Assembly: GCA_003020925.1 (NCBI GenBank)
Contig: PXRT01000010.1
Location: 1-64,000 of the forward strand
Direction: 5' to 3'
Length of the DNA stretch: 64,000 bases
Source of the DNA: Halobacteriales archaeon QS_6_64_34
GTDB lineage: Archaea > Halobacteriota > Halobacteria > Halobacteriales > Haloarculaceae
Positions within the stretch are counted from its first letter, which is position 1. Each line of letters begins with the position of its first letter. The notes beneath the pieces were generated by a model, which ran no database searches, was not told where the DNA came from, and saw only the letters and a program-made list of their open reading frames with translations. The position numbers and the translations under genes were made by a program. Positions 24,307 through 25,875 of this stretch are shown piece after piece.

Positions 24307-25875
24307 GTGCCACTCTCGACGCCGGCCCGTATCGTCAGCGAGCTGGCCAGCCGGGGGTACAACGCCGAGCCCGAAGCGGTGACCAGACTGGCCAGCGCCC
24401 CGGAGTCAGCGGCCGCGCTCGAACGCGCACTGGAAACGATGCCCGAGGACGCCCTGAAGCTGACCGCCGACCACGTCGATTCGGTCCTGGAACGGTCGGA
24501 ATCGCGTGCCGAGGCCAGGTCGACCCCAGGAACAGAGATCGGGGCCGAGCCGCCGCCCGCCGGAACTGAAGACCCCCCTGCTTCAACTGGAGATGGAACC
24601 CCGGAGTCGCCCGACGCCGGGGGCAGTGTTCCAGTCGAAACGAAGGGGTCTCGCGGCGTCGACGTTTCCCGGCGAGCCATCGAGGTCGCAAACGACATGA
24701 CGGGCCACTCGACGGGGACCGGGGAGTATCAGGACTTCGTGACGGTGTTCCGGGACCGCTACGAGAAGCTCGCGGGCAAGCTCCGTGGCCGCGTCAATCA
24801 TCGCCCGACCGACGCCATCCAGAACATGAGCGGCGGGAGCGAGGCGGCCCTCATCGGGATGGTCTCGGACATCCGCTCGACGGCGGGCGGCCACTGGCTG
24901 GTCGAACTCGAGGACACGAACGGCACCTTCCCGTGTCTCGTGATGAAAGACCGGCCGATTGCAGACCTCGTCCAGCAGCTCCTCTTGGACGAGGTCATCG
25001 CCGTCGACGGGACGCTGGCCGACGACGCCGGCATCCTCTTTGTCGACTCGCTGCATTTCCCCGATGTCCCCCGGACTCACTCGCCGTCGACGGCCGACAG
25101 ACACGTCCAGGCAGCCCTCGTCTCCGATATCCACGTCGGCAGCCAGGAGTTCATGGCCGACGCCTGGCACCGCTTTACCGACTGGCTCCACACCCCCGAG
25201 GCCGAACACGTCGAATACCTCCTCATCGCCGGCGACATGGTCGAGGGCGTCGGCATCTACCCCGAGCAGGACAAGGAGCTCGATATCATCGACATCTACG
25301 AGCAGTACGAGCAGTTCTCCGAGTATCTCAAAGAGGTGCCCGGTGACATGGAGATTCGGATGATTCCGGGCAACCACGACGCCGTTCGCCTCGCCGAGCC
25401 CCAGCCCGGCTTCGACGAGGAACTGCGCGATATCATGTCGGCCCACGACGCCTCGGTCCACTCGAACCCCGCGCTCGTCACCGTCGAGGGGGTCACCATC
25501 CTGATGTACCACGGCGTCTCGCTGGACGAGGTCATCGCGGAACTCCCCGACGAGGAGGCAAGCTACGAGAAGCCCCACGAGGCGATGTACCACCTCCTGA
25601 AAAAGCGCCACGTCGCGCCCCAGTACGGCGGCCACACCCGACTCGCACCCGAAGACCGCGACTATCTCGTGATGGAGGAGGTCCCCGACGTGTTCCACAC
25701 CGGCCACGTCCATAAACTGGGTTGGGGGAAATACCACGACGTGCTGGCGCTGAACTCGGGCTGCTGGCAGGCCCAGACCGAGTTCCAGAAATCCGTCAAC
25801 ATCGACCCCGATTCGGGCTATGCTCCTATCTTGGACCTCGATACGCTGGATATGACCGTCAGAAAATTCGATTGA
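24307..25875 (+). CDS. polB: DNA polymerase D small subunit (DP1)
   Basis: A 522-residue exonuclease subunit paired with DP2 (polC, 716). The start is GTG: the reading [20 protein letters not shown] matches the DP1 N-terminus, which forms a helical domain. A low-complexity linker (about residues 75-130) follows, then an OB fold ([20 protein letters not shown]) and the calcineurin-like phosphoesterase with motifs [39 protein letters not shown] and TGHVHKLGW. The metal ligands are all present, so proofreading should be active. Two ORB-like sequences lie inside the linker-coding part (see findings). Confidence 0.95.
24571..24599 (-). promoter_or_regulatory. ORB-like sequence inside polB (inverted, imperfect)
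   Basis: On the minus strand it reads GTTCCATCTCCAGTTGAAGC then AGGGGGG, keeping TTCCA, GAAG and the G-run with a longer middle. It is weak on its own and is listed because of its forward partner at 24628. Confidence 0.35.
24628..24652 (+). promoter_or_regulatory. ORB-like sequence inside polB (forward)
   Basis: GTTCCAGTCGAAACGAAGGG differs from ORB box 3 by two or three core bases. It is in the DP1 linker-coding region, where the protein sequence is free to vary. Confidence 0.6.

Follow-up and report, generated by a model that had tools for sequence, protein, structure and literature searches.

Why should a polymerase gene of haloarchaea carry, within its coding sequence, an inverted pair of boxes that look like those of the replication origin? 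The question is posed by the window, the whole stretch of 64,000 nucleotides that was analysed, in which such a pair lies about 3 kb from oriC1. The elements of this region were assigned as follows.

21055–21076, + strand: further origin ORB, with one mismatch
21277–21298, − strand: left ORB of the inverted oriC1 pair, with extended G-string
21545–21566, + strand: right ORB of the inverted oriC1 pair, with extended G-string
21963–21984, + strand: weak ORB adjoining the start of orc1, stronger in relatives
21978–23543, + strand: orc1/cdc6 of the oriC1 type, whose product presumably binds the boxes (Cdc6_C winged helix, Cdc6_lid and AAA domains)
23563–24243, − strand: signal-peptidase-like gene between orc1 and DP1 (Peptidase_S26, below the Pfam cut-off)
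24307–25875, + strand: polD1, which encodes the small subunit (DP1) of DNA polymerase D; Pfam matches above cut-off are PF04042 DNA_pol_E_B and PF00149 Metallophos
24572–24593, − strand: weak (decayed) mirror ORB, TCTCCAGTTGAAGCAGGGGGGT, with three mismatches to the core
24593–24628, no strand: spacer of 36 bp that separates the two 20-mer cores, G+C rich, conserved in length and not in sequence
24628–24649, + strand: strong ORB, GTTCCAGTCGAAACGAAGGGGT, an exact core match with a score of 37.7 by the PWM built from oriC boxes only

An ORB lies directly upstream of orc1 in most loci, and the weak one at the orc1 start of the window is possibly an autoregulatory box.

The ORB core, TTCCANNNGAAACNNAGGGG, is matched exactly by the + box in DP1, which over 22 nt shares 91% identity with the oriC1 box at 21545. 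The assembly (2.2 Mb, 80% complete) holds three exact core matches: those at 21278 (−) and 21546 (+) are the inverted oriC1 pair, and the one at 24629 (+) is the + box in DP1. With up to three mismatches allowed, the window contains nine ORB matches against 0.97 expected, a count reached by 0 of 100 shuffles. The mirror box (20-mer core at 24573–24592, − strand) has a PWM score of only 13.8; its homologue is strong in most relatives. The inverted pair reported in the preliminary description is thus real, with the mirror weaker and on the opposite strand, the TTCCA ends pointing inward as at oriC1, and both boxes in the DP1 linker, which follows the conserved N-terminal region and precedes the OB/phosphoesterase core, in the ORF that starts with GTG at 24307. 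Two details needed correction: the mirror site was rightly placed but its start, given as 24571, is one nucleotide off the 22-mer register, and the host, rightly recognised as a polymerase gene, is polD1 and not "polB".

We compared 80 DP1 loci from named haloarchaea and ran codon tests on 81 DP1 genes. The PWM was trained on 108 boxes of upstream origins only, so that the DP1 boxes had no influence on the model; they nonetheless match it, and the pair can be recognised by eye in nearly all 80 loci. When the codons of the DP1 N-terminal region were randomised, keeping the protein and the codon usage of each gene (2000 trials per gene), the observed pair score was reached by 0 of 2000 shuffles in 79 of the 81 genes, with P<0.01 in all 81. 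The shuffles fail to recreate the pair because rare codons are fixed at the conserved columns: GAA is the codon in 69 of 69 cases against 26% usage, and CCA encodes 60 of 61 prolines against 5% usage. TCT, GTT, ACT and GGA, and also TCA, are frequent in the boxes at specified columns and avoided in the remaining gene, while the codon that lies over the 'NNN' of the ORB encodes 11 different amino acids. Codon surprisal is highest in the boxes (2.8–2.9 bits) and falls to 1.9 bits in the spacer, to 1.4 where the linker runs from the + box to the core, and to 1.0 within the core itself. The conservation of nucleotides beyond protein that the preliminary description had named as a check is therefore very strong, by codon shuffles, by spacing and by the genome scan below. 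The pair is maintained by selection acting on the DNA itself. Judged by sequence, its membership of the oriC1 ORB family is well supported, and it may hold Orc1; it would be a regulatory DNA element that overrides codon choice in an archaeal gene.

The geometry of the pair is fixed as well. Measured start to start, the boxes are exactly 56 bp apart in 69 of the 81 genes; the exceptions are mostly 53, 65, 68, 71 or 77 bp, and two loci are without a proper partner box. The linker is free to vary in length on both sides of the pair, and the sequence of the spacer has low information content across loci. On a tree of the DP1 core, parsimony counts 9 changes in the spacing, 40 in the distance from the + box to the core and 50 in that from the N-terminal domain to the − box, counts which correct for kinship only in part, related genomes not being independent events. 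The spacings of 53, 56, 68 and 71 bp show no integral-turn pattern of helical phasing and differ from 56 only by multiples of three.

A whole-genome scan for the 56-bp pair, allowing up to three mismatches, found it in 101 of 194 genomes, belonging to 35 of the 65 genera, once per genome save for two genomes with two; placement in DP1 was checked among the matches listed. The reversed pattern, used as a control, matched in 0 of 194 genomes, and a control with the wrong spacing (54 bp, 2 bp short) gave one unrelated match in 391 genomes. The pair was present in 12 of 12 further genomes sampled from the same genus (Haloarcula hispanica is not among this set), and the pair sequences of the genus-mates in the genome scan equal those of the Haloarcula loci (e.g. 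G051 and L008). Genomes without a strict match usually retain a single box or a pair in decay: those of the Halorubrum type have a strong + box only and the pair is degenerate in Halobacteriaceae (some of these genus names are inferred), one or both boxes being lost in Halorubrum, Halobellus, Halobacteriaceae and locus L140. Of loci L148 and L149, a deep-branching member (53% DP1 identity) retains a strong − box and the other has neither. The DP1 N-terminus of 20 genes from other classes of the phylum contains no ORB, and an ancient archaeal origin of the pair was rejected on this ground. From this distribution, the pair most likely arose early in the haloarchaea. At several non-haloarchaeal loci ORBs lie 2–2.6 kb upstream of DP1, fitting an ORB–orc1–DP1 order. 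In two non-haloarchaeal genomes (L168, L169) an ORB-like sequence, TCTGCAGTGGAAATGGAGGGGGT, is found ~0.8 kb into the DP1 core, where it may be driven by the protein.

How does the pair relate to the origin itself? Within the 80 loci, ORBs are concentrated at the origin and, apart from it, in the DP1 linker. Linkage to the origin was rejected as a requirement, since the 56-bp pair is kept at ten loci (L017, L021, L022, L023, L024, L034, L037, L041, L074 and L080) where orc1 is absent from a complete 7 kb of upstream sequence. Among four complete genomes, DP1 lies ~130 kb from oriC1 in Halorarius litoreus, ~85 kb in H. halobius, ~25 kb in Halomicrococcus and ~16 kb in Haladaptatus. As in titration sites, then, boxes of the initiator type stand outside the origin and are kept near it. 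A minor third cluster of ORBs is found 8–83 bp after the DP1 stop codon (L019, L044, L049, L051, L057, L060, L064 and others); this single box reaches its greatest strength in Halorussus, a genus with a decayed linker pair, and may be a relocated replacement of that pair.

ORBs outside both oriC1 and DP1 also gather around the origin. Among 21 large-contig genomes (e.g. G391–G405), 43 of 49 such orphan ORBs, with at most one mismatch, lie within 300 kb of oriC1 against an expectation of 17.5% (binomial P ~1e-26), or 32 of 38 when sites closer than 10 kb are left out; inverted box pairs served for the manual assignment of oriC1, and rounded values were used for six chromosome lengths. The test was framed after the first ten genomes, and a second set, chosen later, gave the same pattern. 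The reversed pattern produced 2 chance matches in 22 genomes. Most orphan ORBs are single and often lie just upstream of open frames; their arrangement around oriC1 resembles that of oriC-proximal DnaA-box clusters or parS sites of bacteria. A 2-mismatch ORB on the oriC1 contig of the source genome (C10:154235–154254, − strand), ~130 kb from oriC1, fits this clustering. Three loci (L182, L184 and L187, of genomes G391, G399 and G400) have a near-identical orphan ORB, TTCGACCGGAAACGRAGGGGT, 88–245 kb from oriC1, with homology between two of the open frames that flank it.

The reading that we place first, and to which we give close to an even chance, is that a class-wide intragenic pair of Orc1/Cdc6 binding sites serves as an origin-proximal reservoir of the initiator. 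We infer Orc1 binding because the boxes share the ORB sequence of oriC1 and, beyond binding, an effect on initiation and the titration that the preliminary description had suggested, which stays the leading mechanism. At boxes of the oriC1 type, Orc binds as a monomer, one to each ORB and in a defined polarity (PMC7776575); each ORB of the DP1 pair would likewise hold one Orc1/Cdc6 monomer, and the fixed 56-bp geometry would yield a defined two-Orc1 complex. This complex would be unable to fire as an origin because it is without the extended G-string and the unwinding stretch. Copied soon after oriC1 fires, the pair would double the Orc1-binding capacity, which would help to prevent re-firing of oriC1 in the manner of datA, DnaA-box clusters and Haloarcula oriC2D.

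The oriC2D region of Haloarcula hispanica, an ORB-rich stretch downstream of cdc6E, restrains oriC2, likely via titration of Cdc6E (PMC3936714). Both elements place ORBs outside an origin and downstream of an orc/cdc6 gene, and oriC2D, for which titration was proposed, has no origin activity; however, oriC2D is intergenic and sporadic, has 11 boxes and belongs to oriC2 and Cdc6E, whereas the two boxes of the DP1 element stand at a fixed spacing within an essential gene, pertain to oriC1 and Orc1, and are conserved class-wide. DnaA-box clusters outside oriC delay initiation in B. subtilis, and datA of E. coli always lies near oriC. The DP1 pair is similar to these in that initiator sites stand outside but near the origin, restraint being reported in bacteria and hypothesised for the pair, and it differs from them in its archaeal Orc1/ORB components (the initiators are unrelated), its coding location and its fixed inverted arrangement. 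How archaea prevent origin re-firing is largely an open question, for which the DP1 pair, along with the orphan ORBs gathered near oriC1, offers a concrete site; the boxes of the pair could be recoded synonymously in a tractable species, leaving both protein and origin untouched. We found no report of ORBs in DP1 in the open literature, and our results suggest that the pair is an unrecorded site that holds or uses the replication initiator away from the origin.

Several points count against a reservoir. Two boxes are few sinks to set beside those of oriC1 (the oriC2D of H. hispanica has its 11), and for titration alone neither the fixed spacing nor a site inside DP1 is needed. Some lineages, moreover, have lost one or both boxes. 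Wu et al. found cdc6A much harder to delete than oriC1 in H. hispanica and inferred for it a vital task other than initiation at oriC1; this may hint at a positive function. That function could be exerted at the DP1 pair, for example on DP1 expression, and cis-control and chromosome organisation therefore keep substantial weight. A broader proposal, possible although we advance it tentatively, is an oriC1-centred network of orphan Orc1 sites, with the DP1 pair as its most conserved member, that links firing to polymerase supply or to the architecture of the origin domain; if true, such a network would be a replication-control system so far undescribed in archaea.

In the case of cis-control, which we regard as somewhat unlikely, Orc1 bound inside the gene would block transcription or switch it, and so tie the supply of the PolD small subunit to initiator level or cell cycle. 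The persistence of the pair in DP1 even where the gene is distant from oriC1–orc1 speaks for it, but a trans-acting site in an essential gene would travel with that gene too. Cis-control would also suit the essential nature of polD1, the inferred vital role of Cdc6A and the frequent position of other orphan ORBs directly upstream of open frames. On the other hand, the boxes lie ~270–340 bp into the gene at a widely varying distance from the N-terminal domain, and where the pair decays its replacements are found beyond the stop codon rather than in the promoter.

To chromosome organisation we assign a small chance. Here, the Orc1 pair and the oriC-proximal orphan ORBs would act together, in an array of the parS or handcuffing kind, on the folding, pairing or segregation of the origin domain, as the clustering of orphan ORBs near oriC1 and the fixed two-site geometry would allow. 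However, the orphan sites are mostly single and unpaired, and we found no evidence for spreading or bridging by Orc1 in archaea.

The preliminary description had also considered a secondary origin element, and a second or dormant origin, or an MCM-loading site, 3 kb from oriC1 is improbable. The haloarchaeal oriC1 consists of inverted ORBs around an AT-rich region adjoining orc1/cdc6A, and the DP1 pair shares with it the core and the inverted, TTCCA-inward layout. Unlike oriC1, the pair is intragenic, with 56 bp rather than roughly 200–330 bp between boxes and no AT-rich unwinding stretch in its 36-bp G+C-rich spacer, and the halophile-specific extended G-string, GGGGTGGGGG, is absent from the DP1 boxes, which end in GGGGTCT or similar while oriC boxes end in GGGGTGG. 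Either one of the extended G-strings is essential for oriC1 function (ARS activity) in H. hispanica (PMC3936714). When oriC1 is deleted in that species, the local replication peak is lost, without the emergence of another origin. A second origin is disfavoured because the G-string, the AT-rich stretch and a residual origin in the H. hispanica deletion are all missing.

We consider it very improbable that the inverted repeat acts as a long stem in the DP1 mRNA. Folding of the window RNA is modestly better than that of shuffles (z −2.22); despite this, the hairpin was rejected, as the arms do not covary: their identity at ORB-variable columns is 0.527, against 0.514 when arms are exchanged at random between genomes (21% of these shuffles score as high), and each arm fits the oriC consensus independently. 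Next to no chance is left for a linear peptide motif in the DP1 linker (DPSVSTG/PVETEGS) with the DNA likeness as its by-product. The peptides do recur, always in the same frame, but synonymous sites are frozen to rare codons and amino acids vary at ORB-degenerate positions, and codon randomisation and codon tables reject it.

Elsewhere in the window, 16 kb from oriC1, an ORB-like site with two mismatches (37906–37925, − strand) lies in a serB-like phosphatase gene, where it falls on the codons for ALETEGV and may reflect protein constraint alone. A similar ORB-like site is found nearby, perhaps in the same gene, in several Haloarcula loci (e.g. L012:10451).
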